Position numbers and translations under genes: made by a program | Source: Crocinitomicaceae bacterium | GTDB taxonomy: Bacteria > Bacteroidota > Bacteroidia > Flavobacteriales_D > Crocinitomicaceae | Direction: 5' to 3' | Assembly (NCBI GenBank): GCA_024639405.1 | Contig: JAHEIL010000017.1 | Location: 1-64,000, forward strand | DNA length: 64,000 nt | The notes under the pieces: model-generated | Database searches by the model: none | Told to the model about the DNA's origin: nothing | Seen by the model: only the letters and a program-made list of their open reading frames with translations | Shown: piece by piece, positions 5,586 to 57,531 of the stretch | How positions within the stretch are numbered: the stretch's first letter is position 1 | Layout: each line of letters begins with the position of its first letter

Positions 5586-6711
5586 CATCGTTTCAAAAAT
5601 AGTACGTTTTTCAACCTTACTCAAGGTGATTACCATCTGTTGCTTGGTTGGTTTACTATTTTCGTACTTAGCCCCGTTTGTTCATCCTAATACGTTGAAA
5701 ATCATTCCATTTTTTGGTTTGTCCTACCCTGTTTTCTTATTACTTTCTCTGATCGCTCTAGTTTTTTGGGCTTTTATGAAATCTAGAATGGCGCTTTTAA
5801 TCATTGGTGTGCTTTTGATAGGTGGTAAATTACATTTTCGAATTTTTGCATTTGGTTCCAACCAAGATACATTACCTGCAAAAGAGAAATTATTGCATGT
5901 CATGAGTTACAATGTACGTTTATTTGATTTATATACAGCTGACGAAAACAACATTTATGAAAAAAGGAATTTAATATTTGATTACATCAAAAATGAAGAC
6001 CCTGACATTATCTGTTTTCAAGAATTTTACCACCAAGATAAACCAACAAAATTCAAAACACGCGATACACTAATTGATATTTTAGCCATAAAAGATTACC
6101 ATGAACGATTTGCACATAAATTAAAAGGTAGACAAAACTTTGGTGTTTCTATATTATCTAAATATCCTTTAATTGCAAAAGGAGACGTCATGTTTTCAAC
6201 GCAAGGCGATCAAGATTTTAATTACTGTATTTTTGTTGATTTGGTCAAAAACCAAGATACATTTAGAATCTACAATGTTCACCTACAATCTATACGATTA
6301 AAACAAGAAGATTATTCGCTCTTTAAAGATGGTGCAGCTTCTATTGAAAAAAAATCAATGGTCCGCCTATTGATTGATAAATTGCGTATTGCTTATCCTA
6401 AAAGAGCTGAACAAGCGAGAGCAGTCATAGATCATGTTCAAACATCTCCGTATCCTACTATAGTTTGTGGTGATTTTAATGACACACCGATGTCTTATGC
6501 TTACAATCAATTCGATAAATTATTAATCGATGCGTTTAGAGAAAGTGGATTTGGTATTGGCACAACTTATATTGGAAAAGTTCCTGCAGGAAGAATCGAT
6601 TACATCTTCCATACACCAAATTTATTTTCGACAGAATTTAAAATTCAAAAAGAAAAATTAAGCGATCACAGAGCTATTTCTTGTAAACTATTTAAAGATA
6701 CACTTCAATAA
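5578..6711 (+). CDS. Membrane-anchored endonuclease/exonuclease/phosphatase (EEP) family protein
   Basis: 377 residues. The ATG at 5578 is chosen over an upstream in-frame start at 5512 that would lie inside the rhomboid gene. Three membrane helices fill about residues 10-105. The EEP fold follows, with MSYNVRLFD, the metal-binding glutamate in DIICFQEF, GDFNDTP, RIDYIFHT and the C-terminal SDHRAI. All these metal and catalytic residues are present, so it should be an active metal-dependent phosphodiesterase or phosphatase whose active domain probably faces the periplasm. Whether it cuts nucleic acid, phospholipid or another ester cannot be told. Co-transcribed with mutL and the rhomboids by spacing. 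Confidence 0.88.
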   Translation: MGNIVSKIVRFSTLLKVITICCLVGLLFSYLAPFVHPNTLKIIPFFGLSYPVFLLLSLIALVFWAFMKSRMALLIIGVLLIGGKLHFRIFAFGSNQDTLPAKEKLLHVMSYNVRLFDLYTADENNIYEKRNLIFDYIKNEDPDIICFQEFYHQDKPTKFKTRDTLIDILAIKDYHERFAHKLKGRQNFGVSILSKYPLIAKGDVMFSTQGDQDFNYCIFVDLVKNQDTFRIYNVHLQSIRLKQEDYSLFKDGAASIEKKSMVRLLIDKLRIAYPKRAEQARAVIDHVQTSPYPTIVCGDFNDTPMSYAYNQFDKLLIDAFRESGFGIGTTYIGKVPAGRIDYIFHTPNLFSTEFKIQKEKLSDHRAISCKLFKDTLQ

Positions 6712-43927: not shown

Positions 43928-46900
43928 ATGAAACCACTTTACCTTTTAATTTTTCTCCTGTTTTTACAGGTTAAAAATTTTGCACAACTTCCTGTTTTCA
44001 CCCTAAACACAACTGTTGTTCCTGCAAGTTGTCCAAATAATGGTGAAATATCATTTTCTGTAACAAATACCGCTGTTGGTGCAACAGTAATTTATCAAGT
44101 TTATGAACTTCCATCCAATACCTTATTAAGTAGTAATTCTACTTCAACATCTATTAATTCATTGCCTCCAGGAAACTATAGTGTTGTTGCTACCCAAAAT
44201 CTAGGAGCGCAAAGCAATAGTCAATCCGCTACTGTTACAGTAAATTCAACCTACATACCGCTTGTTTATGGAATAACTACAACTCAAAATGTTATTTGTG
44301 GATATGATGGCGTTATAAACACTTCAATAACAACAGGAATGCCCAATTATACCTATGAATTATTTGCCGGAAGTATTTCAGGCTCCATAGTTGCTCCATT
44401 ACAAAGCTCACCAACGTTTACAAATCTTACAAATGGTACATACATAATAAGAACATTTGACGCGTGTGGAAATGCATTTCCCAGTTTACCTGTAAACGTT
44501 GGAATTAATCCTCAAAACATAAATAATTTATATAATCAAATTAATTATTCATCCGTCAGCTGTGATTCAATTGACGTCAATCTATACTTAAACGGTACAA
44601 GCAATTCATTTCCAGCCACCTCAACATTGAGCTATACTGATGGAACGCTGCATACTATTACAGGAAATGCAGATGGCACATTTCCTACACAAACTGTTGC
44701 AATTGCAAATTTTCCCATCACCTTTACATCCATTTCTACGGATGCTTGTGGAAATGTTGATAATTTTCAAACTATTGCAACATTAAATACTAGTCAAGAA
44801 AACAGTCATAAAACCAAAGCATTGTGTGAACAATTTTATTATTCATTTGTACCAAACAATTTCTTTTCCAATTCAGGCTACACAATAAATTTCACCAATT
44901 CACCACTTGGTTTCAACCCTTTGACATACAATGCGAATCATCCGGGGGTTTTTAATGGTTCAGCAAATTATGGTGGACCTACAAATCCTTTACCAGAAGG
45001 AACATATACAGCTGTCTTAACTAATTCTTGCGGTTTGAGTTACACGTTGAATTTTACAACTTTCAAAGAAATTGATTCAAGTTTAAACAGTAGTGTTAGT
45101 TATAATAATTGCGGACAATCCATCTTATCAGTTTATAGAAATGATTTATATTTTGATTCTGTTTACCTCATACAAGCTCCAAATACTTTTACTCAAACTC
45201 TACCCTTCGACATTACATCCTCATTAAATTCAAATAATAGTCTGGTATCTATAGTTTTAGACCCAGGTTTTTATAAGTTTAAATTCATCGATTCATGTGG
45301 AATTACTCGATTTTTTGAAATTAATCTGTTAGCGCCAACTTTAGAAGTATCCTTTTCTCAGCTTCCAGGTTGTCAAATTGGATATGGAAGTTGTATTTTT
45401 TTTATGAATTGGATAGGAACTGGATTAACTTCAACAAGTGGGATTCAAAATTGTTGGATTACAAGCGCTCCTAGTGGGTATGGAAACACCTTGCCACATG
45501 ATCTCTCAAGCACCATCAATACAGGAAGCAACTATTATCATATCGGAAATTTGATACCAGGAAATTATACATTTAGCTTTAAAAATGCGTGTGGTGATTC
45601 GATTTCTAAAACTGTTATAATTGATGATTTTACTTTTACTACGACCAATTTTGAATACACTATTAATTGCAATTATATCAATTTACGATTTAATGTTTCA
45701 ACAAATAACCCAAGTGGAAGTTTTGAAATACAACGAAACATTAATGGTGTTTGGACATTCATAACTTCTATTACTGGAAGCAATATATGGCACAATTACC
45801 TTGCATTTGCAGAAGGAGATTATAGAATCATTTATTATAACACAGCTTATTCATCAAATAATTTAGCCGGTTTTGCCAATCGCTACGAAACATGTGTTCC
45901 AAATTGGAGTATTCCGTTCTCAATTGATTATCCAGATCCTGAAATTGAAGCAATCAATTCTTGGAATTGTGGTTTAGATAATTACAATGCTTATGTAACA
46001 GCAACTGGGGCAGGACCAATAACGTATAAAATCTTGAAATATAATGGCGCTCCCTTTTTAGTCAACAATGGAAACAATCCACTTTTCACAAATTTATCTG
46101 AAGGTCTCTATTTGTTTCAAATCATTGATGTTTGTGGAAACATTAGAACGCGCTATATGGAAATTCGTTTCATTAACAATTACATTTTTCCTGACTCTAT
46201 TTGTGATAATCAAAATGGATCGTTATCAATTTATGGATTTAGTGCTCTTAATACTATTTTAGGTTTCAAATGGTGGAAAGGATCTGATCCAAGTACGATT
46301 TTATCAACAACAACTTCACTAAACTTTACTCCATATAATAACAGCATTCATCAAGGTGAATATTTTGTACAAATCTATTCTATTTCAAATCCTGCTCTTT
46401 GTCCAGATACAGTTTCTTACATATTAAATACAGCAATCATACCATCTGCAGGCTTAGATTCATCTGCTCAAATCTGTAATGACAATACAATTATTGATTT
46501 AAGTCAATTTTTATCAACCAATGCTACAAGCGGAGGTTATTGGTCTGATACGGTTAATAATTTGACTTTTTATGGAAATCAATTGGATCTTTCAACTACT
46601 CCAAATGATACCATTCATGTCTTATATATTGTTGAAGGAGCGTGTAATTTTAAAGATACAGCCGTTTTTACGTTTAATGTCATCCAACTTGACAGTGTTC
46701 AAGTAATTCATTGCCCTTCTGATACAATAATTTATGGTTGTCCTCAAATCGTAGATTGGAATACCCCTATTTTCTTTACAAGTTGTTCAACGCTTAACGC
46801 ACTTTCCAATTTCAATGAAAATGATTTCTTTCCTCAAGATACAACGCTTGTAAATTATACGTGTAACGGTCCATTAGGCGATATAAAAACATGTAATTTT

Positions 46901-49597
46901 AATGTAATCATTTTAGATACTATTTCACCTATTGTAACTTGTCCAAATGACACAACAATTATAAGTAATGGTTCAACTTGTGGGAAGCTTTATACTTGGA
47001 CAGCACCAACATTTTCTGACAATTGTGATACAAATCCAATACTTACACTTTCAAGTTTACCCAGTGGTTTACAAAATGGATCTACATTTCCAATTGGCAC
47101 TTCTACACTAACATATACTGTAATAGATGCTTCTGGTAATTCAACACAATGTTCATTTATCGTAACTGTAATTGACACTACTAATCCTGTAATTAGCGCA
47201 TGCCCAAGTGATACGAATCTGAACAATTTAATTGGAATGTGTTCTGCAAACTATACATGGATTCCTCCTCAATTTAATGATAATTGCGACGATAGTTTAA
47301 CTGTTTGGTACGAAAGCTCACCAACAGCTGGACTAACCAATGGTAGTGCATTTCCATTTGGAAAAACTGTAATAACTTATTTTGTACAAGATAATTATGG
47401 AAATATTGATTCTTGCATATTTGAAATAAACGTTGTTGATAATGAAAGTCCACAAATAATAAATTGTGGACTAGATACACTACTTTCAAATGATCTTGGA
47501 ATTTGTGGAAAAGTATATACTTGGATTACGCCAACTTTTACAGATAATTGCGACAATGCACCAACTATAATTTTAACAAGTTGGCCTACAATTGGACTTC
47601 AAAATGGAGATACACTTCCTGTTGGCACAACTTATTTCAAGTACTTTGTAACAGATGAATATGGAAATTCAGATTCTTGTATGTTTGAAATCACCGTTCA
47701 AGACAATGAAGCACCATCATTTTTAAACTGTGCATCAGACACTACTATCAATAACAATATAGATATTTGTTCCGCTATTTTCAATTGGAATTCACCTTTA
47801 ATTCTGGATAATTGTGATGGCAGTCCTTCATTAAGCTTTCAAACTTTTCCAACGACAAATTTAATTTCAGGAGATCTATTTCCGTTAGGTCAAACAACAA
47901 TTCAGTACACGGCAATAGACTCCATAGGAAATGAATCAACATGTAGTTTTGTTGTAAATGTTATTGATGTACAAGATCCAGTTATTTTTAATTGTCCTAC
48001 AGACACTATTTTATCGAATGAAGCCACAATTTGTGGAGCGCATGTTACTTGGATCACTCCTACTTTTTCAGATAATTGTGATACAAATTTAACCATCACT
48101 TTATCAAGTTCACCAACTGCGGGATTACAAAATGGTGCTATTTTTCCAGTTGGAATTACCACAATGAACTACCTAATTGTCGATAATTTTGGTAATCAAG
48201 TAAACTGCTCATTTACAATTGAAATACTAGATAATGAATTTCCTGTTATTCAAAATATACCCACACAAATTTTAAATTTTTGTGACGGTGACAATGTAGA
48301 TTGGGCAACTATTTTAGCTTCCGATAACTGCTCAATCGAAACTTTTGATTACAAAACTTCTCCTACCCCAAATTTACTTGAGGGAACTCCATTTCCAATT
48401 GGAAACACAACTGTTACATACACTGCAATTGATCAAGCTGGAAACACAACAATTGACAGTTTTTTTGTACACGTTGAACCGCTATTAGTAGCTAAAGTAA
48501 GCGGAAAACATAAAGCATGTAAAGATGATGTTGTTTCGCTACCCATCACATTTTCATGTATCAATGGATTAGCTCCATATGAATTTATCTATTCAATTAA
48601 TGGTGGTCCGAATTTAAGTGTCATTTCTCCAAATTCAAATACAATTACAATTTTTCATCCAACTTCGATTTCTGACACCTTTAATTATCAGTTAATTAAT
48701 GTGATTGAAAGTTCTGGGAATTATTGTCCGCCTATTTTACTGGATTCAGGACAAGTAATTATATATCCATTGCCAGTTGCAACGATTATTGGCGATACGA
48801 TTGTTTGTCAATACTCTGAACCTTCAAAAATAATATTCACTGGTTCCAATGCAACACCAAATTATAGCTTTAATTATACAATAAATGGCGGTTTGAATTA
48901 TATCGTTCAAACCTTAAACAATAATGACAATTTATCAATTGAGACCATAACTTCTGAAATTGGAAATTTTGTTTATACATTAAATTTAGTAACTGAAAGT
49001 GCCAACAATTGTAAACAACAACAAGCTCAATCAATAATTATTGCCGTTAAAGCTTCACCTAGTGCTTCATTTTATTGCGCTCCTTCTTTCATAAAAGAAA
49101 CAGAAAATGTAGTCCATTTAGTAAATGAAAGTCAAGGCGAAACATCTTATCTTTGGGACTTTGATGATGGAACATATTCTTCCTCAATTTATTCTCCCTA
49201 TCATCAATTTTCTGTTGACAGTATAAATGGATATGAAGTAAAATTGACCGTGGTAAACGAATTCAATTGTGTTGATACAGCTATTAGATTTATCAATATC
49301 AAACCTGACCCATTGATTTATGTTCCCAATTCATTCACACCTGACGGTTCAAATTTGAACGATGTCTTTATCCCAAAAATGTCTAATGGAATCGATGAGA
49401 AAAATTATTCGTTCACAATTTTTAATAGATGGGGAGAAATAATTTTTGAAACGAACATCACAACTGAAGGCTGGAACGGTAAAACAAAAAACAATGAGTT
49501 AGTTCAAGATGGAGTTTATACTTGGGCGATCAAATACGCTGTTTTTGACAGTTCTAAAGTAATTGAAATGAATGGACATGTAAATTTAATGCGATAA
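43928..49597 (+). CDS. Giant HYR-repeat cell-surface protein with T9SS type B (CHU_C) domain
   Basis: 1889 residues. Signal peptide about 1-19 (LLFLQVKNFAQ). Residues about 20-920 are a series of Ig-like and SprB-like segments with regularly spaced cysteines. Residues about 1000-1515 hold six HYR modules (about 88 residues each; core TCPNDT, TWTAPTFSDNCD, FPIGTSTLTYTVIDASGN, CSF). Two further beta domains and a PKD-like domain (SYLWDFDDGTYSS, about 1735-1795) lead to the CHU_C sorting domain (VPNSFTPDGSNLNDVF, FNRWGEIIFE, NGHVNLMR). A secreted adhesin or gliding-related filament is inferred. The nearest neighbour on its 3' side is convergent. Confidence 0.87.
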   Translation: MKPLYLLIFLLFLQVKNFAQLPVFTLNTTVVPASCPNNGEISFSVTNTAVGATVIYQVYELPSNTLLSSNSTSTSINSLPPGNYSVVATQNLGAQSNSQSATVTVNSTYIPLVYGITTTQNVICGYDGVINTSITTGMPNYTYELFAGSISGSIVAPLQSSPTFTNLTNGTYIIRTFDACGNAFPSLPVNVGINPQNINNLYNQINYSSVSCDSIDVNLYLNGTSNSFPATSTLSYTDGTLHTITGNADGTFPTQTVAIANFPITFTSISTDACGNVDNFQTIATLNTSQENSHKTKALCEQFYYSFVPNNFFSNSGYTINFTNSPLGFNPLTYNANHPGVFNGSANYGGPTNPLPEGTYTAVLTNSCGLSYTLNFTTFKEIDSSLNSSVSYNNCGQSILSVYRNDLYFDSVYLIQAPNTFTQTLPFDITSSLNSNNSLVSIVLDPGFYKFKFIDSCGITRFFEINLLAPTLEVSFSQLPGCQIGYGSCIFFMNWIGTGLTSTSGIQNCWITSAPSGYGNTLPHDLSSTINTGSNYYHIGNLIPGNYTFSFKNACGDSISKTVIIDDFTFTTTNFEYTINCNYINLRFNVSTNNPSGSFEIQRNINGVWTFITSITGSNIWHNYLAFAEGDYRIIYYNTAYSSNNLAGFANRYETCVPNWSIPFSIDYPDPEIEAINSWNCGLDNYNAYVTATGAGPITYKILKYNGAPFLVNNGNNPLFTNLSEGLYLFQIIDVCGNIRTRYMEIRFINNYIFPDSICDNQNGSLSIYGFSALNTILGFKWWKGSDPSTILSTTTSLNFTPYNNSIHQGEYFVQIYSISNPALCPDTVSYILNTAIIPSAGLDSSAQICNDNTIIDLSQFLSTNATSGGYWSDTVNNLTFYGNQLDLSTTPNDTIHVLYIVEGACNFKDTAVFTFNVIQLDSVQVIHCPSDTIIYGCPQIVDWNTPIFFTSCSTLNALSNFNENDFFPQDTTLVNYTCNGPLGDIKTCNFNVIILDTISPIVTCPNDTTIISNGSTCGKLYTWTAPTFSDNCDTNPILTLSSLPSGLQNGSTFPIGTSTLTYTVIDASGNSTQCSFIVTVIDTTNPVISACPSDTNLNNLIGMCSANYTWIPPQFNDNCDDSLTVWYESSPTAGLTNGSAFPFGKTVITYFVQDNYGNIDSCIFEINVVDNESPQIINCGLDTLLSNDLGICGKVYTWITPTFTDNCDNAPTIILTSWPTIGLQNGDTLPVGTTYFKYFVTDEYGNSDSCMFEITVQDNEAPSFLNCASDTTINNNIDICSAIFNWNSPLILDNCDGSPSLSFQTFPTTNLISGDLFPLGQTTIQYTAIDSIGNESTCSFVVNVIDVQDPVIFNCPTDTILSNEATICGAHVTWITPTFSDNCDTNLTITLSSSPTAGLQNGAIFPVGITTMNYLIVDNFGNQVNCSFTIEILDNEFPVIQNIPTQILNFCDGDNVDWATILASDNCSIETFDYKTSPTPNLLEGTPFPIGNTTVTYTAIDQAGNTTIDSFFVHVEPLLVAKVSGKHKACKDDVVSLPITFSCINGLAPYEFIYSINGGPNLSVISPNSNTITIFHPTSISDTFNYQLINVIESSGNYCPPILLDSGQVIIYPLPVATIIGDTIVCQYSEPSKIIFTGSNATPNYSFNYTINGGLNYIVQTLNNNDNLSIETITSEIGNFVYTLNLVTESANNCKQQQAQSIIIAVKASPSASFYCAPSFIKETENVVHLVNESQGETSYLWDFDDGTYSSSIYSPYHQFSVDSINGYEVKLTVVNEFNCVDTAIRFINIKPDPLIYVPNSFTPDGSNLNDVFIPKMSNGIDEKNYSFTIFNRWGEIIFETNITTEGWNGKTKNNELVQDGVYTWAIKYAVFDSSKVIEMNGHVNLMR
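46940..48480 (+). repeat. HYR module tandem repeats (264-bp period)
   Basis: The C-x-x-D-T position recurs at 46940, 47201, 47465, 47729 and 47993, and degenerately near 48257: 88-residue modules. Divergence between copies is much larger than in the fibre gene, so these are old duplications. Confidence 0.88.
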
Positions 49598-49643: not shown

Positions 49644-50558
49644 TCAACTAACGCTAATGCTCTCTTGTTTTTTAAACAGTGACTTTTCAGAACTGATTTC
49701 AATGTCAATTCGCCCTAAATGCAATCCGCCCCAGCCTACTTGATTGATTAAAACTGGCTTTCCTTCCGAATTATTTAATTCAATTGGTTTTTCCATAAAA
49801 GTATGGGTATGACCACCTAAAATGATGTCAATATTGCTTGTTTGAGCTGCTAAAACACGATCTGAAACCTTATCTGTTTGGTATTCAAAACCTAGATGTG
49901 ACAAACAAATTACAACATCACATCCTTCTTTCTTAAGTATTGCTGCAACTTCATTGGCAACTTTAATTGGATTCAAATAAATCGTTTGTTCAAATTTAGA
50001 AGCAGGAACTAATCCTTCTAATTCGATTCCAATTCCAAAAACTCCAATTGAATGCTTGCCTTTTTTGAAGATGGTATAAGGCTTGGTTTTATCTTTCAAA
50101 ACTGTTTTAGAAAAATCATAATTAGCACATAAAAAAGGAAATTGTGCATGTTCACTTGCCATAAAAAACCCTTCTAAACCTGCGTCAAAATCATGATTCC
50201 CCATAGTAGCGGCATCGTAGCCTAATTCTGACATTAATTTCATTTCCAACGTACCTTTGTACTTATTGAAATAAGGTGTTCCTTGAAAAATATCTCCCGC
50301 ATCTAACAATATGACATGTTCCTCTTGTTGTCGAATGGCTTTGATTACTTCAAATCGTTTTGAAACGCCTCCCATATTTGGAAATTTACTATGATTATCA
50401 GGTAAAGGCTCAATGTTGGAATGCGTATCATTTGTATGTAAAATTGTTACTTTCGTCTTCTTTTGTTGGGTAAAAATTGTTTTACCAAATAAATTTCCAG
50501 CAAAAAACAACCCACTGGAAACCATTGCACTCTTTTTAACAAATGATCTTCTTTTCAT
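49644..50558 (-). CDS. Tat-exported 5'-nucleotidase N-terminal (metallophosphatase) domain protein
   Basis: 304 residues. A Tat signal (KRRSFVKKS, twin Arg at 3-4, hydrophobic stretch to about 25) implies folding with metals before export. The calcineurin-like phosphoesterase motifs are complete: HTNDTH at 41-46, DAGDIFQGTPY, MGNHDFD, SHLG and LGGHTHT. The usual C-terminal substrate-binding domain of UshA-type 5'-nucleotidases is missing here and is encoded by the preceding gene of the operon, 46 bases upstream. Together they should hydrolyse nucleoside 5'-monophosphates to nucleosides and phosphate in the periplasm. Confidence 0.9.
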   Translation of the reverse strand: MKRRSFVKKSAMVSSGLFFAGNLFGKTIFTQQKKTKVTILHTNDTHSNIEPLPDNHSKFPNMGGVSKRFEVIKAIRQQEEHVILLDAGDIFQGTPYFNKYKGTLEMKLMSELGYDAATMGNHDFDAGLEGFFMASEHAQFPFLCANYDFSKTVLKDKTKPYTIFKKGKHSIGVFGIGIELEGLVPASKFEQTIYLNPIKVANEVAAILKKEGCDVVICLSHLGFEYQTDKVSDRVLAAQTSNIDIILGGHTHTFMEKPIELNNSEGKPVLINQVGWGGLHLGRIDIEISSEKSLFKKQESISVS

Positions 50559-50604
50559 AAGTTTGAAATTAACTATAATATATGAACTTGGGTTGATTAT
50601 TCTA

Positions 50605-51309
50605 TTAAAATGTCACGCGAGATGTTGAGTCAACAACTAACAAACCTTGTCTCTTTACTTCTTCTATCAATGCTGAACGTAACAATTTGTAGGTGAATTT
50701 TACCTCGATTTTTTGTTGAAAAAAATCCATTTTATCCCCCCCATTCATCAAATAATCTGATGTGATCACCCAAAAGAATTTTGTTTGAGAATTGAATCCA
50801 TTTAGTTGTAATTTTCCTTGAACAAGGTTTGCGTTTGCAAGCGGTTCCCCACCAGTCTTAGTCAAGTACGATTCAATTGAATTGATCGAACTTATAGGAA
50901 GTTTCACCCAAACAAGTTCATTATCAAAAGGCATGACCTTAAAAACATCACCTACTGTAATTGATCCTTTATTAAAACTAGATCTAATTCCACCGACATT
51001 AAACAAACACATTACTGGATCAGTTAAACGAACATTATATGTTTGATTCACAAAAATTGCGTCCGCAAACCAATTGTTCATCGTTCCTTTTGGACGGGCA
51101 GTCATAAAATTTATAGGTGAAGTGCCAATAACAACATTCATTTCTTTTGCCAACGAATCTTTATAAGGCTTAACGATACTATCAATGGATGAATTTGATG
51201 GAAAAGTCGCATCTAATTTAACAATAGAAGGTTTTAAAATCACTTCTGTAACAGAAGAGCAGGCCAAAAGACCTGCTCCAATGCAAATAACTATAAAAGT
51301 TTTAATCAT
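50605..51309 (-). CDS. 5'-nucleotidase C-terminal domain lipoprotein
   Basis: 234 residues. Lipoprotein signal with lipobox LLAC (Cys 17). The remainder matches the 5_nucleotid_C domain that binds the nucleoside: NWFADAIF, FNVGGIRSSFNKGSITVGD and the PFDNELVWVKL segment. It has no catalytic metal site and needs the separate metallophosphatase encoded downstream. Being lipidated while its partner is Tat-exported and soluble, it may tether the enzyme to a membrane. Its start codon overlaps the endonuclease stop by one base. Confidence 0.87.
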   Translation of the reverse strand: MIKTFIVICIGAGLLACSSVTEVILKPSIVKLDATFPSNSSIDSIVKPYKDSLAKEMNVVIGTSPINFMTARPKGTMNNWFADAIFVNQTYNVRLTDPVMCLFNVGGIRSSFNKGSITVGDVFKVMPFDNELVWVKLPISSINSIESYLTKTGGEPLANANLVQGKLQLNGFNSQTKFFWVITSDYLMNGGDKMDFFQQKIEVKFTYKLLRSALIEEVKRQGLLVVDSTSRVTF

Positions 51310-53450
51310 TATTCAATCACAATTGATTTTTGAGCTACACCATAAGGTGTTGTTGTTTTTACAATATATGTTCCTGCTTTTAAAGTAGAACTATTCACTT
51401 TCGCTAAGACAACATTTTTAACATCAGAAGCTAAGACAACACGACCTTGAATGTCAATTATTTCATATGCTGAAATTGTAGTACCATCCACGTGTAAATT
51501 CAATTCGTTTTTTGCAGGATTTGGATATACAATAAAGTTAGAAGTCAATAGTTCATCAACAGAAGCTTGACAAGCCAATGCATCATAGGTCATGTTTGAG
51601 AAATTGATGTAACAAACAAAATCTACGCTATCCACAAAAGGATTTCTATTTCCTTGTAATGAATCAATGTAATCATTTCGTGAAATCTCCCAATTACTTG
51701 GTAAATCGTTAAAATGCCATTGTTTTAAAATTGCTTGGTTTTGAGCAGTTGGTAATGCCCAAGAATTTCCACTTACGGTTGTATAACAAACAGTTTCATA
51801 CATCATAGCTCTAGCAGCATCTCCTTTGTGTTCATCTCTTGGTTCAAAAACGGTGTTTCCATTGGCATCTTGACCAAATTTACAACCTAAATATGATTGT
51901 GTAACTGTTACAACCTTTCCTAATGGGTAATTACTTCTCAATGCATTTACCTCATCTTGATTTGTTGGGAACAAATGGTGGTAATCATTGTACTCAGGCA
52001 AAGATTGAGCAGGATTAGTCGGCATCCAAGAATGACAATATGTATGTTCTCTTGAATAACCTGTTGCAGTGAAATCAAATGGTTCAGAATAAATTTTATT
52101 TTCACCTGAATACACACACGTTACAACACGACGGTTCAAGGTTGTATCTCTTGCTGCAAATCCTTTGATCATAAAGTTTCCGTAATTACTATAAAACTGC
52201 ATGGTATGTGGATTTACCAAATTGTGTAAATCTGTTAAAAACGTTGAACTAGATGTGTTAATTCCTGCATATTCATTTGCAGGTTGCATTGTTGCAGGAG
52301 TTGTAACAGCACCAAAAAGCGGATTTGTCGTCAAATAATTGATATTTGAACCAACACCATTGTATGAAAAGATTAAAAAATGATACGCAGTAGATGCAAC
52401 GATATTGTTCGGAACAAAACTAGTTGAATTAGCAGCATAAACTACTTGAGCATCTCCAATAACATCTCCTCTTTCATAAACGGTTCCATCAACTGGTGAA
52501 GCAGTAATTGCCGATCCTTTTTTACGCAATACAATGTATCCTCCAACATTTGCAGCAGGTGTAAAAGAACCCATTACACGGTACGTTTTATTCATGGTAA
52601 ATGTTAAAGCAGTTGGTTGAGTAGTTGGTTCAGTAGCAAAATTCCCACCAATACCATTTAAATTAACAACATAAGAAGCTTCATCAGCATCATTACTAGC
52701 AATTGTCAAGACAGCTGATCTTGTACCTGCTGCACTAGGTGTGAAATTCACAATTAAATTTCCAGTAGCATTCGCTGCAACTGAAGATGGGAAAGAAGCT
52801 ACAGAAAAATCGGCTGCATTTGTTCCTGAAATTGTTGCAGATGTTATGTTTAATGCATTTCCAGTTCCTAAATTTTCAACTGTAAATGTTGTAGGTGTCA
52901 TTGTTGCAACAGGAGAAGTCAAAGTAAAAGTTCCTCCGTTTAAAACGGTTGTTGCACCTTGTTTTACATTGATTTCTTGAGCTGGTGTGGCTGCTCCTAC
53001 TGCAATTGCTACATCATCTAAACCAACATTTCCAGAAACTTTAGTCGTATAAATGAAACGAATAAAACGAGTTGCAGGCAACGGAACATCTGTAAATTGT
53101 GTGTAGGTTCCAGTTGGCAACGTTGTAAACGCATGTAAGGTTGTCCATGTTGTTCCAAACTCAGATTCTTCCACTGTGAACGTGCCGCCGTTAAAACTAT
53201 TCCCTGTGATATAATAAGTTAAATTACCAGGATTACTTGCAAAATTTATTATTAAATTATCACCAGTTGAATCGAATTTTTTAGCAGGTGGTGTATTACC
53301 TGATGCGGTATACAATAAAGACTCAGATTCTGTCCAACCGATTGGTAATGTTGGTGTAGTAAAACTCCAACTAGTTGGTAAAACAGCTTGTGAAAAACCT
53401 GTAAAACTAATCAGTAAGACTAGTAGAGAAATGTAATTCATTCTTTTCAT
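51309..53450 (-). CDS. Secreted endonuclease I with choice-of-anchor domain and T9SS type A sorting domain
   Basis: 713 residues. Signal peptide about 1-20 (SFTGFSQA). A jelly-roll-like N-terminal region, then an ASH/choice-of-anchor D domain at about 157-268 and a fibronectin-like spacer to about 375. The endonuclease I domain (EndA/NucM/Vvn type, about 395-625) has REHTYCHSWMP at 467-477, the catalytic and metal region DYHHLFPTNQDEVN at 489-502 and RNDYIDSLQGNRNPFVD at 591-607. Residues about 638-713 are a T9SS type A sorting domain (VYPNPAKNELNL, IDIQGRVVL). The enzyme should cut DNA or RNA outside the cell. Confidence 0.92.
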   Translation of the reverse strand: MKRMNYISLLVLLISFTGFSQAVLPTSWSFTTPTLPIGWTESESLLYTASGNTPPAKKFDSTGDNLIINFASNPGNLTYYITGNSFNGGTFTVEESEFGTTWTTLHAFTTLPTGTYTQFTDVPLPATRFIRFIYTTKVSGNVGLDDVAIAVGAATPAQEINVKQGATTVLNGGTFTLTSPVATMTPTTFTVENLGTGNALNITSATISGTNAADFSVASFPSSVAANATGNLIVNFTPSAAGTRSAVLTIASNDADEASYVVNLNGIGGNFATEPTTQPTALTFTMNKTYRVMGSFTPAANVGGYIVLRKKGSAITASPVDGTVYERGDVIGDAQVVYAANSTSFVPNNIVASTAYHFLIFSYNGVGSNINYLTTNPLFGAVTTPATMQPANEYAGINTSSSTFLTDLHNLVNPHTMQFYSNYGNFMIKGFAARDTTLNRRVVTCVYSGENKIYSEPFDFTATGYSREHTYCHSWMPTNPAQSLPEYNDYHHLFPTNQDEVNALRSNYPLGKVVTVTQSYLGCKFGQDANGNTVFEPRDEHKGDAARAMMYETVCYTTVSGNSWALPTAQNQAILKQWHFNDLPSNWEISRNDYIDSLQGNRNPFVDSVDFVCYINFSNMTYDALACQASVDELLTSNFIVYPNPAKNELNLHVDGTTISAYEIIDIQGRVVLASDVKNVVLAKVNSSTLKAGTYIVKTTTPYGVAQKSIVIE

Positions 53451-53467
53451 TTTTTTTATTTATTTAA

Positions 53468-56200
53468 TTAAAACCCAATTTTCAATCCCACGTTAAATCT
53501 TCTGCCCATTCCAACAAATACATTTGCTGTTGTTGCGTCAAATCCTGGACCATTTTGTGCATCTGTAATATACACTTCATTCAAAACATTCATTATACCT
53601 CCTGAAAGTGTAGCAAAATATTTTTTAAAGAATTTTATTTCATAACCAAAATTGAAATCTAACAAACCATAACTTGGCATCATCCAAGATTCTCGATCTT
53701 TGTTAGCACCAACTAATTCAACAGGGTCAAAATTGGCATAATTTTTATCAAAGTAAGTATAACGCAATTTCACGTACAAATCTTTTTTAATTTCATATCT
53801 TACACTAGCACCCAATTGAATTTGAGCTGCATCACCAACATGCACATCTTTCGCACTGAAATCGACTTGGGCAACAATGTTATTGTCTTGATCAATAATG
53901 GTTACAATATTTCCAGATGTTGTTCTCCAATCTGCAATTGAAGCTAGTCCCTCAAAGTCAATTTTAGGAGTGATTTTATAAATAAAATCCAACTCAATCC
54001 CTTTATGTAAAGCATCTAATCCATTGATGTTATAAGAATCTCCATCTAAAGTAGTATAGGTAAATTGAGGTGGTTTATTTTTCCAAATGGTATAATACAC
54101 ATTTACATTGGATGAGAATCGTTTACTTTTATAACCATAACCTAATTCAATAGAGGAAACTTTTTGATTTTGAATTTCTAAAAATGCTCTGTTTGCAATA
54201 TCAAAAACAGTATTCATTTTTGGAGCTATGTTCAGGTATCCAATATTAAAAAATACATTGTGATTTTTATTGATGTTGTAATTTGCACCTCCTTTTATTG
54301 TAGCACCCGTAAACCATTTTTCATCAGTTGTTGCAGCTCTTGCTTCAGCAGAATTAATGGTGTATTTTGTTCCATTTAATAGCATCGTATCACCGTATCC
54401 AACAGCTTGTGCATAAACTACACCATCTATTACTAAATCTTTTTTCTTGAAATAATCAATTCGTTGGTAACCAGTTGAATTAACAGATGCTGTAACAAAC
54501 GAACTCCACTTGTCTTTTTTGAATTCAACTTGACCAAAAATGCCTCCCCATTTCACCGTAGCATCATTGTAATATGCAATTTTATCACCTACTCTTTTCA
54601 TTGAATTAGAAGTGTTTCCTAAAGTTGGTGTCTGTTGATTTTCGTTGGTATTATCAATTGCATAATCACCTCCCATTAAATCGTATACACTTTGGTAATG
54701 CGAACCTCTATAATAACGCGCATCTACTCCAAACATGGACGTCCAATTTGTATTAATCTTATAATTCAAAGTTGATAATATTCCATACCATTTATGGTCA
54801 TTGTTTGAAGCTCTTAAATAATTACTTGACACATGTTCTGTTGTGCTATACAAACTTGAATAAGTCGTAGAATTATAATCATACACTGTTTGTAATTTCA
54901 ATAAACCATTGGTTGTGTCATAATCACTTAAAGGTGTTTTTAAACCAGTTCCACCGCCAGAACCAATAGACATATACAATACCGTTGTTAAGTTAAGGCG
55001 AGTAGATGGATTATAAGAATGTGTTAAATTGAATTGTGGTTTGTGGAAAAAGTTAACTTTTTCATTAAAAATTTCACCATTAATAATTCCAGAATTTGGA
55101 TTGTAACGGATTCCTCTAGCGCCGATTGTTGGAGTTGTATATTTAGAATTACTCACTTGAGACAATGAATCTAAGGATTCTTGGTAATTAATTCCTGCTT
55201 TTTCCGCTAAACCTTTATCGATAACTGCAATTGGTAAACGCGTTGTACGTTGTCCATGCGATTGAGGAGCACCATTTACCCCTAAACTAAATAAATGCTT
55301 TTTGTATTTTTTCTGAACTTTAATAAAATAAGACCAAGCATCGTCAAATGTAGCATCTGCATAACTTGTACCCCACTTTTTAGCTCCTGCAACAGTTACT
55401 CCCCAATTACCTTTCAATAAACCTGTATTGTAACTAATTGCAGTTTTAAACAATCCATAATCATTTATTTCTTGTTTGAAAGTAGCTCCCATTTTAGCAT
55501 CAATGCCTTTAGTAACAACGTTCATTGTACCTCCAACAGAAACAACAGAAAGTTTGGAAGCTCCTAAACCACGTTGCACTTGCATGTAACGCGTAATGTC
55601 ACTTAATCCATCCCAGTTACTCCAATAAACCTGTCCATTTTCCATGTCATTTACTGGAACACCATCTACCAAAACAGCAATGTTACGTTGGTCGAATCCT
55701 CGAATAGAAACACGCGCATCGCCTGCTCCACCACCTTGTTCTGTTGCATAAGCACCGGGGGTAGAATTTAAAATCATGGGTAAATCGCGTGTTCCTAAAT
55801 CTTCTGTAATTTGTTTAGCAGTCAATTTTGAAAAAGCAATCGGTGTTTCACGGGTTTTTGCAGCATCTGCTTTAACTATCACTTCATCGATACCTTTCAC
55901 ATACTTTGCTAGAGTTATATCATATTTCAATGACGTATTTCCTACTTTAAGATTAAAAATCAAGGTATCAAAACCAATACTTGTTACTTTAAAAGAATGT
56001 GTTTTGGATGCTTCAACTTGCAATTGAAATTTACCATCTAAATCAGATTTCACAATCAATGTGTTATCGCAAACAATACGAGCATCGTAAATTATTTCAT
56101 CCGTTTCTAAATCAGAAATTGTTCCACTAATTGTGACTTTAGTCTGATTAAACGCAAAAAATGAAATAAATAAAGTTAAAAAGAGTATTGAAATTTTCAT
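53468..56200 (-). CDS. TonB-dependent outer membrane receptor
   Basis: 910 residues. Signal peptide about 1-18, a CarboxypepD_reg-like domain (about 20-105, KVTISGTISDLETDEIIYDA), a plug domain (about 115-230; VSIRGFDQRNIAVLVDGVPVND is split here as two motifs, RGFDQRNIAVLVDG and VPVNDMENGQVYWSNW) and the 22-strand barrel ending in GLKIGF. No SusD-like partner is adjacent, so it is not a typical glycan-utilisation pair. Within an operon of nuclease and nucleotidase genes, oligonucleotides, nucleotides, nucleosides or phosphate are the likely ligands (inference). Confidence 0.9.
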   Translation of the reverse strand: MKISILFLTLFISFFAFNQTKVTISGTISDLETDEIIYDARIVCDNTLIVKSDLDGKFQLQVEASKTHSFKVTSIGFDTLIFNLKVGNTSLKYDITLAKYVKGIDEVIVKADAAKTRETPIAFSKLTAKQITEDLGTRDLPMILNSTPGAYATEQGGGAGDARVSIRGFDQRNIAVLVDGVPVNDMENGQVYWSNWDGLSDITRYMQVQRGLGASKLSVVSVGGTMNVVTKGIDAKMGATFKQEINDYGLFKTAISYNTGLLKGNWGVTVAGAKKWGTSYADATFDDAWSYFIKVQKKYKKHLFSLGVNGAPQSHGQRTTRLPIAVIDKGLAEKAGINYQESLDSLSQVSNSKYTTPTIGARGIRYNPNSGIINGEIFNEKVNFFHKPQFNLTHSYNPSTRLNLTTVLYMSIGSGGGTGLKTPLSDYDTTNGLLKLQTVYDYNSTTYSSLYSTTEHVSSNYLRASNNDHKWYGILSTLNYKINTNWTSMFGVDARYYRGSHYQSVYDLMGGDYAIDNTNENQQTPTLGNTSNSMKRVGDKIAYYNDATVKWGGIFGQVEFKKDKWSSFVTASVNSTGYQRIDYFKKKDLVIDGVVYAQAVGYGDTMLLNGTKYTINSAEARAATTDEKWFTGATIKGGANYNINKNHNVFFNIGYLNIAPKMNTVFDIANRAFLEIQNQKVSSIELGYGYKSKRFSSNVNVYYTIWKNKPPQFTYTTLDGDSYNINGLDALHKGIELDFIYKITPKIDFEGLASIADWRTTSGNIVTIIDQDNNIVAQVDFSAKDVHVGDAAQIQLGASVRYEIKKDLYVKLRYTYFDKNYANFDPVELVGANKDRESWMMPSYGLLDFNFGYEIKFFKKYFATLSGGIMNVLNEVYITDAQNGPGFDATTANVFVGMGRRFNVGLKIGF

Positions 56201-56219
56201 ACAAGACTTTTTTCTTAAT

Positions 56220-57131
56220 TTATTGAATAACTAAATTTGATTGAGCTATTTCACTGTTTACAAAATAAATACGAACGGTATACATCCCTTTTTCAAAAGC
56301 AGCTGTTCCAATTTCAGTTGAGATAACAGATCCATTTTTTACTTCAGTAGCGATCACTTGACCTAAAACATTCAAAAGTTCAATTTTATCGATACCAATT
56401 GATGCTGAAACCATTGTTTTTCCATTTTGAGATGGATTTGGGTAAACTACAAATGATACTTTTGATGCTAATTCATCGATTCCTACAAAACAATCACAGG
56501 TATGTTGACCTAATTCTGTCCATGTATCTTTTGGCAATGAATCCCACTCTGTTGTTACAATAAACGGATCTGGATTTACAGTCACTCCTTTAACAACATT
56601 AGCTTTACGGATCAATGTTTGATCTTTGGTCCACCATGCACCTACTGAACCATCGTAAGGAAATTCATCACTCCATGATTGCGCAGTTGCGATTGATGCA
56701 TCACCTGATTTACCAAATAAATCAATCATTACACCGTTTTTAAACAAACCGATCGCATCGTTTCCATTCATGTATGTTGGAGCTGGATACGCACCGTCTA
56801 ATTGATCGGCTAAAGCTTGTAATGCTGGAGACGCAGCAGGTGAAGAACCTGTTCCAGTTGTTTGACCATTTACAATAACAAATGTTGAATAAGGAGCGAT
56901 TGAACCTGTTAAGTTTAAAACGCCTCCTGCTGTAGTATTGGAATTTCCATTTGAATATCGTTCAACTGTATATCCTGACAAATTTATTGTTGCTCCTGTT
57001 GGATTGTAAATTTCGATCGCTTTATCATTTCCTGTACCTTCTACATATTCTGAAATGAATAATTCAGAACAATCTTGTGCATATGTAGCACCAAAAACTA
57101 AAAAACTAAAATAAAGTAACGTTTTTTTCAT
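56220..57131 (-). CDS. Secreted lamin-tail-domain protein with T9SS type A sorting domain
   Basis: 303 residues. Signal peptide about 1-18 (VFGATYAQ). A lamin-tail domain (LTD, about 20-150) with the hallmark LFISEYVEGTGNDKAIEIYN and INLSGYTVERYSNG, and the conserved NGNDAIGLFKNG. A T9SS type A C-terminal domain follows (about 230-303; VYPNPSQNGKTMV, ELLNVLGQVI). LTDs are found in other extracellular nucleases of the ExeM type, and this one heads an operon with endonuclease I, so DNA binding at the surface is a reasonable guess. It has no catalytic domain of its own. Confidence 0.87.
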   Translation of the reverse strand: MKKTLLYFSFLVFGATYAQDCSELFISEYVEGTGNDKAIEIYNPTGATINLSGYTVERYSNGNSNTTAGGVLNLTGSIAPYSTFVIVNGQTTGTGSSPAASPALQALADQLDGAYPAPTYMNGNDAIGLFKNGVMIDLFGKSGDASIATAQSWSDEFPYDGSVGAWWTKDQTLIRKANVVKGVTVNPDPFIVTTEWDSLPKDTWTELGQHTCDCFVGIDELASKVSFVVYPNPSQNGKTMVSASIGIDKIELLNVLGQVIATEVKNGSVISTEIGTAAFEKGMYTVRIYFVNSEIAQSNLVIQ

Positions 57132-57531
57132 AACATATTGATTTTAAAAATTAAAAATGCAGTTGATTTTTGAAATGAAATTCACAAAAGAAAAAGAAAA
57201 ACAGTAAACAACAGGTTGAACCATAAGAAAAGTCCTATCCCTTAAATTACTGATACTTTGTGACATTATTTTTTCATCTCGCCGTGTTTATTTGTCTATG
57301 GTTTCAGACTATTTTAATAATAGCTTCAAGGAGAACATAGAAAAACTTGAAACAAATGTAATTAAATATTTATTGTGTGTCATTATTTAATTGTTAACAT
57401 TCAAACAATCATTTTAAACAATTTTGTTAATATTTTTTGATATTGTATTACTTTTAAGGCCTAAAATAAAGCTATTAGTTATTTGCATATTAATTCATTT
57501 TAAGAATAAAATACAAACAAAATTAGATCAC
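57132..57531. promoter_or_regulatory. 400-base divergent intergenic region between the nuclease operon and DPP IV
   Basis: AT-rich and without a credible open reading frame. It must contain the promoters of both directions. A TACTTTTA near 57447 is a near match to the -7 consensus on the plus strand; no match was found for the minus strand. The in-frame upstream start at 57424 for DPP IV is rejected because the signal peptide begins at 57532. Confidence 0.4.

Follow-up and report, generated by a model that had tools for sequence, protein, structure and literature searches.

The window analysed here, a stretch of 64,000 nucleotides from a Crocinitomicaceae bacterium, carries five closely spaced genes on its minus strand. 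Read in their own direction, the first (56220..57131) encodes a protein of 303 residues with a signal peptide, a lamin tail domain (LTD) and a type A sorting tail of the type IX secretion system (T9SS). The second (53468..56200) encodes a TonB-dependent receptor of 910 residues composed of a CarboxypepD_reg domain, a plug and a barrel, and the third (51309..53450) a secreted endonuclease I (EndoI) of 713 residues, which joins a choice-of-anchor D region, the EndoI domain (residues 403-608) and another T9SS type A tail. They are followed by the gene of NucC (50605..51309), a lipoprotein of 234 residues with a partial 5'-nucleotidase C-terminal domain, and that of NucN (49644..50558), a protein of 304 residues with a Tat signal and a metallophosphatase or 5'-nucleotidase N-terminal domain. 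The gaps between the genes are 19, 17, -1 and 46 bases, and the five would be transcribed as one unit. A gene for a 1889-residue T9SS surface protein with six HYR stretches (43928-49597, plus strand) converges on the end of the operon.

All five reading frames had been called in the original prediction at these positions and with these gaps, and the domains and export signals that it proposed are borne out by matches in Pfam and NCBIfam, by a lipobox and by a twin-arginine start. The LTD protein matches the LTD and T9SS type A tail models, the tail above its cut-off; the receptor matches CarboxypepD_reg and Plug; and the EndoI protein matches Endonuclease_1, choice-of-anchor D and the T9SS tail, again above cut-off. 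Both the LTD and the EndoI proteins end in the C-terminal domain (TIGR04183/PF18962) by which T9SS type A cargo is recognised. The Endonuclease_1 match reaches 104.5 bits against a cut-off of 25, and the Vibrio Vvn/EndoI structures match the protein at residues 488-607, and the PDB chain 8glk_D, deposited as Endonuclease I, matches the T9SS tail. The motifs REH and EVNALRSN, candidates for the catalytic Glu-His and Asn residues, can be picked out by eye, and a loose pattern for them fits 67 of 98 homologues.

The last two genes encode a split 5'-nucleotidase pair. NucC has the lipobox LLACSS, and its 5_nucleotid_C match covers only 77 of the 158 model positions in Pfam; of 49 homologues, only 18 retain the GG[IV]R motif. 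NucN begins with the twin-arginine sequence MKRRSFVKK, contains the Metallophos domain of Pfam and NCBIfam, and is matched by the structures of CD73 and UshA. Its metal-site motifs D-x-H, GNHDF and GGHTH are kept in nearly all homologues (46/47). Rather than lying in one chain as in UshA-type enzymes, the two domains are encoded by two genes with different export signals, the C-domain gene coming first, and this split arrangement is conserved in the family.

The predicted structure of the receptor (model m3aa962f5090a, pLDDT 83.7) is that of a classical TonB-dependent transporter, with PqqU/YncD as the nearest solved fold and Fiu also near. These nearest folds bind PQQ, siderophores or copper, and no solved relative has a nucleic-acid ligand. 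There is no SusC/RagA model among the Pfam and NCBIfam matches of the receptor, SusC homologues match it by sequence in the N-terminal region only, and the same two collections find no SusD family among the five operon proteins. The locus had been described as laid out like a glycan utilisation locus without SusD. The layout and the missing SusD both stand; since the receptor is nearest to the monomeric PqqU/YncD and not to SusC, the likeness is one of layout only. The model of the LTD protein (m0197eceb51c8, pLDDT 88.5) combines an Ig fold of the lamin type with a C-terminal T9SS domain that matches T9SS tails. We propose that this protein serves as a surface capture or scaffold protein and that the receptor imports oligonucleotides or nucleotides. 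The capture role is offered as a proposal only, since the LTD of Vibrio cholerae Xds is dispensable for both activity and localisation (PMC6746945).

The grouping of these genes goes beyond chance. The 2.63 Mb genome contains a single EndoI gene, eight LTD stretches distributed over five reading frames and 19 receptor plug domains, yet all three kinds adjoin here. The wider comparison that the original prediction called for, whether the gene order recurs in other Bacteroidota, was strongly positive both within the family and across the class. Of 200 family genomes, 195 contain a relative of the receptor, with identities of 65-92% in a few genera and of 40-46% in the majority; the nearest record bearing a name, whose receptor is 92% identical, comes from a Crocinitomicaceae metagenome-assembled genome. 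Sixty family loci were chosen by receptor similarity alone, disregarding their neighbours, and nearly all of the untruncated ones have the LTD, receptor, EndoI, NucC and NucN genes in the same order and on the same strand, an order that persists where the receptors share only about 42% identity. Where at least 4.5 kb of downstream sequence was available, NucC and NucN were both present in 46 of 47 loci. The association extends to the kind of EndoI gene: among the first 150 family EndoI matches listed, 65 of the 69 long-frame genes lie within 6.5 kb of the receptor, as against 1 of the 81 short-frame genes.

Outside the family, the receptor is matched at E-values up to 1e-40 in 111 of 295 genomes of the class. 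The core of LTD, receptor and EndoI genes recurs in many other families, mostly without NucC and NucN; the predicted set of five is therefore kept as such in the family, but the broad core has only three genes. Pooling 180 loci and dropping near-duplicates left 147 loci of the receptor subfamily. An LTD T9SS protein is encoded immediately before the receptor in 131 of the 135 non-redundant loci whose upstream sequence suffices, and a T9SS nuclease-type gene comes next downstream in 110 of the 117 with enough downstream sequence, 91 of these being EndoI and 19 PLD-type. None of five related receptors from outside the subfamily has an LTD or nuclease neighbour. The receptor belongs to a distinct subfamily of TonB-dependent receptors, whose class-wide core is LTD, receptor and nuclease, and the split 5'-nucleotidase pair is an addition at the level of the family.

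Several loci depart from this plan. The nuclease is absent at a few (L104, L117, L118, L201 and L202), and a small gene or a short gap stands between receptor and nuclease in L111, L115, L117, L118 and L121; in L117, L118 and L121 the small gene encodes about 145-150 residues with a lipoprotein-like start, and that of L117 has no Pfam match. In L094 the receptor and EndoI genes are separated (5623-6554, minus strand) by a gene for an AbiEii-type nucleotidyltransferase together with a small partner frame. Two loci of another family, L123 (4637-6239, minus strand) and L124 (4318-6082, minus strand), carry NucC and NucN directly beside the operon on the opposite strand. An apparent fusion of the LTD and receptor genes in L200 was rejected: the joined frame still contains the remains of a T9SS tail and, internally, an intact signal peptide, which indicates two genes merged by a frameshift.

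It is the slot of the third gene that says most about the substrate. In the 19 PLD-type loci this gene encodes a T9SS protein, which where scanned has two PLDc_2 domains and often a DUF5689 domain; L097, L105, L130 and L131 have all of these features together. The slot is PLD-type in many loci of marine Flavobacteriales, and in two further loci, L166 and L170, the PLD-type gene stands ahead of the LTD gene. In L178 and L190 the slot holds an EndoI protein of a different layout, the one in L178 carrying a weak second LTD. When the EndoI or PLD label was placed on the receptor tree (146 rows), 11 changes were counted, at least eight of them forced by well-supported branches, compared with 26 for shuffled labels; the nuclease was therefore swapped repeatedly while the LTD protein and the receptor stayed. 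The slot is shared by two unrelated folds that can both cleave phosphodiester bonds, and the EndoI family consists of nucleases. This repeated replacement is our main reason, and the strongest evidence, for taking nucleic acid as the most likely substrate on the basis of the sequences, and it supports the substrate that had been predicted. PLD-type domains are found also in phospholipases, which counts against the nucleic-acid reading.

We consider it probable that the operon serves nucleic-acid utilisation by cutting at the surface, import through the receptor and removal of phosphate in the periplasm. EndoI would leave the cell via the type IX secretion system and cut DNA, perhaps also RNA, on or close to the cell surface. 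The LTD protein, likewise exported by T9SS and encoded first, may keep the substrate or the enzyme beside the receptor, and the receptor, a TonB-dependent one, would actively import short oligonucleotides or nucleotides. In the periplasm, NucC and NucN as a split UshA-type pair would strip phosphate, leaving phosphate or nucleosides for the cell to use. A search of the genome confined to the CNT family found no CNT-type nucleoside transporter, which speaks against this reading, as do the partial domain and poorly kept motif of NucC, the loci that lack the nuclease and the ligands of the folds nearest to the receptor.

An unlikely alternative is that the operon clears extracellular DNA instead of feeding on it, for biofilm dispersal, surface detachment or defence against DNA traps, and that the receptor imports some unrelated ligand set free from the matrix, for instance a chelated metal or a cofactor. 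The nearness of the receptor fold to PqqU/YncD and to siderophore receptors would suit such a cargo, and Dns and Xds do govern biofilm and detachment in V. cholerae (PMC6746945). However, the receptor and the LTD protein are the most constant partners in these loci and dispersal needs neither, and the 5'-nucleotidase pair that one family has added, split and with periplasmic export signals, would be equally superfluous. Slightly less probable still is a general scavenging of phosphorus from phosphodiesters such as phospholipid head groups and teichoic or sugar-phosphate polymers, in which nucleic acid would be just one substrate of several. The operon would then be a SusD-less functional relative of the Flavobacterium PUS loci, in which outer-membrane transporters go together with periplasmic enzymes, both phosphodiesterases and phosphomonoesterases, and whose expression rises when phosphate is depleted (PMC8115612). 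The PLD-family domains that stand in for EndoI at some loci would fit, but EndoI is the commonest third gene (91/110), and the DUF5689 proteins appear from their sequence to have an OB-like segment. EndoI (His-Me finger) proteins are nucleases, and none is known with a lipid or sugar substrate, which also speaks against a general phosphodiester diet.

Nucleic-acid utilisation, as the preferred reading, has close precedents. PUL-like phosphorus loci and DNA-eating Bacteroidota have both been published, and what the operon adds is a variant of PUL-like nutrient loci. In Flavobacterium, PUL-like phosphate loci with SusCD-type transporters (PusCD; PUS I and II) resemble the operon in their organisation, in having an outer-membrane TonB-dependent transporter and periplasmic phosphatases, and in their organic phosphorus substrates (PMC8115612). 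The PUS loci, however, have SusCD-like pairs with a SusD lipoprotein, whereas the operon has no SusD and its receptor is not SusC-like; a T9SS nuclease and an LTD protein are its fixed partners instead. F. johnsoniae EndA1 and EndA2 (Fjoh_4721 and Fjoh_4723) are outer-membrane proteins that each unite an LTD with an EndoI domain and are induced when phosphate is depleted; they are listed as orphans with no receptor locus (PMC8115612); here the two domains are in separate proteins, encoded beside a receptor. Polysaccharide utilisation loci of the SusCD type likewise place a surface enzyme, an active outer-membrane transporter and periplasmic enzymes in one operon, but the present one is without SusD, the SusC signature and carbohydrate-active enzymes.

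The domain set of EndoI, LTD and 5'-nucleotidase is also shared with the Vibrio and Shewanella proteins Dns/EndA (EndoI), Xds/ExeM (LTD-OB-exonuclease), UshA and CpdB. In these bacteria the LTD lies inside the exonuclease and export is not known to go through T9SS, nor are their genes for DNA use known to be joined in one operon with a TonB-dependent receptor. Within the Bacteroidota, Lutibacter is reported to take carbon from extracellular DNA in sediment, and sediment Bacteroidota including Lutibacter to have extracellular nucleases and periplasmic nucleotidases, with no mention of TonB (PMC8289736). Our literature searches turned up no description of the operon or of its leader RNA, nor any experiment on the proteins concerned. 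By published accounts the Bacteroidota are among the major consumers of extracellular DNA, and in the literature found the crossing of the outer membrane by the pieces is unreported; a receptor subfamily tied to nucleases offers a direct, testable candidate for this step, and its gene can serve as a marker of DNA foraging in metagenomes.

The more unexpected part of the locus is the leader rather than the operon. A single promoter probably drives the five genes, and the transcript would open with a conserved stem-loop. The predicted sigma-A -7 box TACATTTG (57353..57360, minus strand) agrees with the TAnnTTTG consensus (PMC9723704), and a TAnnTTTG box occurs at a near-fixed distance before P1, the outer stem of the leader, in 56 of 61 loci but in only 6 of 163 control windows. 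With the box at its published position of -12 to -5 (PMC9723704), transcription is predicted to start at about 57348, roughly one base ahead of P1. Farther upstream than this predicted promoter lies the perfect palindrome TGTTAACA (57392..57399, minus strand), conserved in part of the family; it occurs in 21 of 58 family upstream regions against 1.1 expected and is possibly the site of a regulator.

The leader RNA element itself (57289..57347, minus strand; roughly 59 nt) lies ahead of the LTD gene, where the transcript is predicted to begin, and is made up of the P1 stem, the loop UUCUCCUUGA, a P2 hairpin, the loop GAAAC and the closing strand P1'. P2 is variable and the internal loop nearly fixed, with CCUACA in place of CCUUGA in other families. 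The outer stem covaries. In 46 sequences 80% of cells pair, whereas shuffles reach 59% and slid registers 39-48%; in 156 cells both sides have changed, as opposed to 51 in shuffles. Because the first candidates had been chosen partly for the stem, the test was repeated on 47 loci selected by the loop motif only, where 428 of 470 P1 cells (91%) are paired against 44-58% in other registers. The support for the fold comes from this covariation, as folding the single sequence at 57347-57289 gives nothing better than shuffles (z 0.0). The model of the element matches these positions at 65.9 bits (E 2.5e-11), the sequence being one of those from which it was built. Rfam 15 has no match at the gathering threshold, and permissive searches gave a best E-value of 2.2 or worse; the look-up thus yielded no Rfam or riboswitch family. 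The element might stabilise long mRNAs at their 5' end, bind a protein or act as a switch that responds to a ligand. Just past it, an alignment of eight close relatives shows a conserved possible three-codon frame, ATGAAAAAATAA (57266..57277, minus strand), within the conserved ATGAAAAAATAATG (57264-57277, minus strand).

The leader is not confined to this operon. A second copy in the same genome (C41:26725-26781, plus strand) precedes the gene of a SprB-repeat/CHU_C surface protein, and 68 of 120 family genomes have a match, often in two copies. We rejected the notion that the leader belongs only to nucleic-acid genes, since its second copies stand before genes of other secreted proteins, the one just named among them; the element marks exported proteins, not nucleic-acid use. 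The first model (R1) matched only 6 of 247 class genomes and was too narrow for all families, so a second (R2) was built; its variant is present in 33 of 291 class genomes, with up to seven copies per genome and tandem pairs in two. Strong matches mostly precede genes of exported proteins, and weak ones may be chance. If real in cells, the leader would be a new cis-acting RNA common to exported-protein genes in several families of Bacteroidota. A broader reading, which we put forward tentatively and hold rather less probable than its converse, is that the loci represent a widespread SusD-independent route of nucleic-acid import, with a dedicated receptor subfamily, interchangeable T9SS nucleases and an LTD surface partner, and with an undescribed element that opens the mRNA, as it does the mRNAs of other exported proteins, and controls expression or stability.

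Tandem copies of the leader, a few bases apart, stand before large secreted-protein genes in L286 (1429-1571) and L153 (1891-2032). In L328 (431-4314) and L334 the leader precedes a large exported protein with no Pfam match; in L328 this protein is followed by a DUF5689 lipoprotein (E 6.6e-40), and the locus is possibly another one devoted to nucleic acid.
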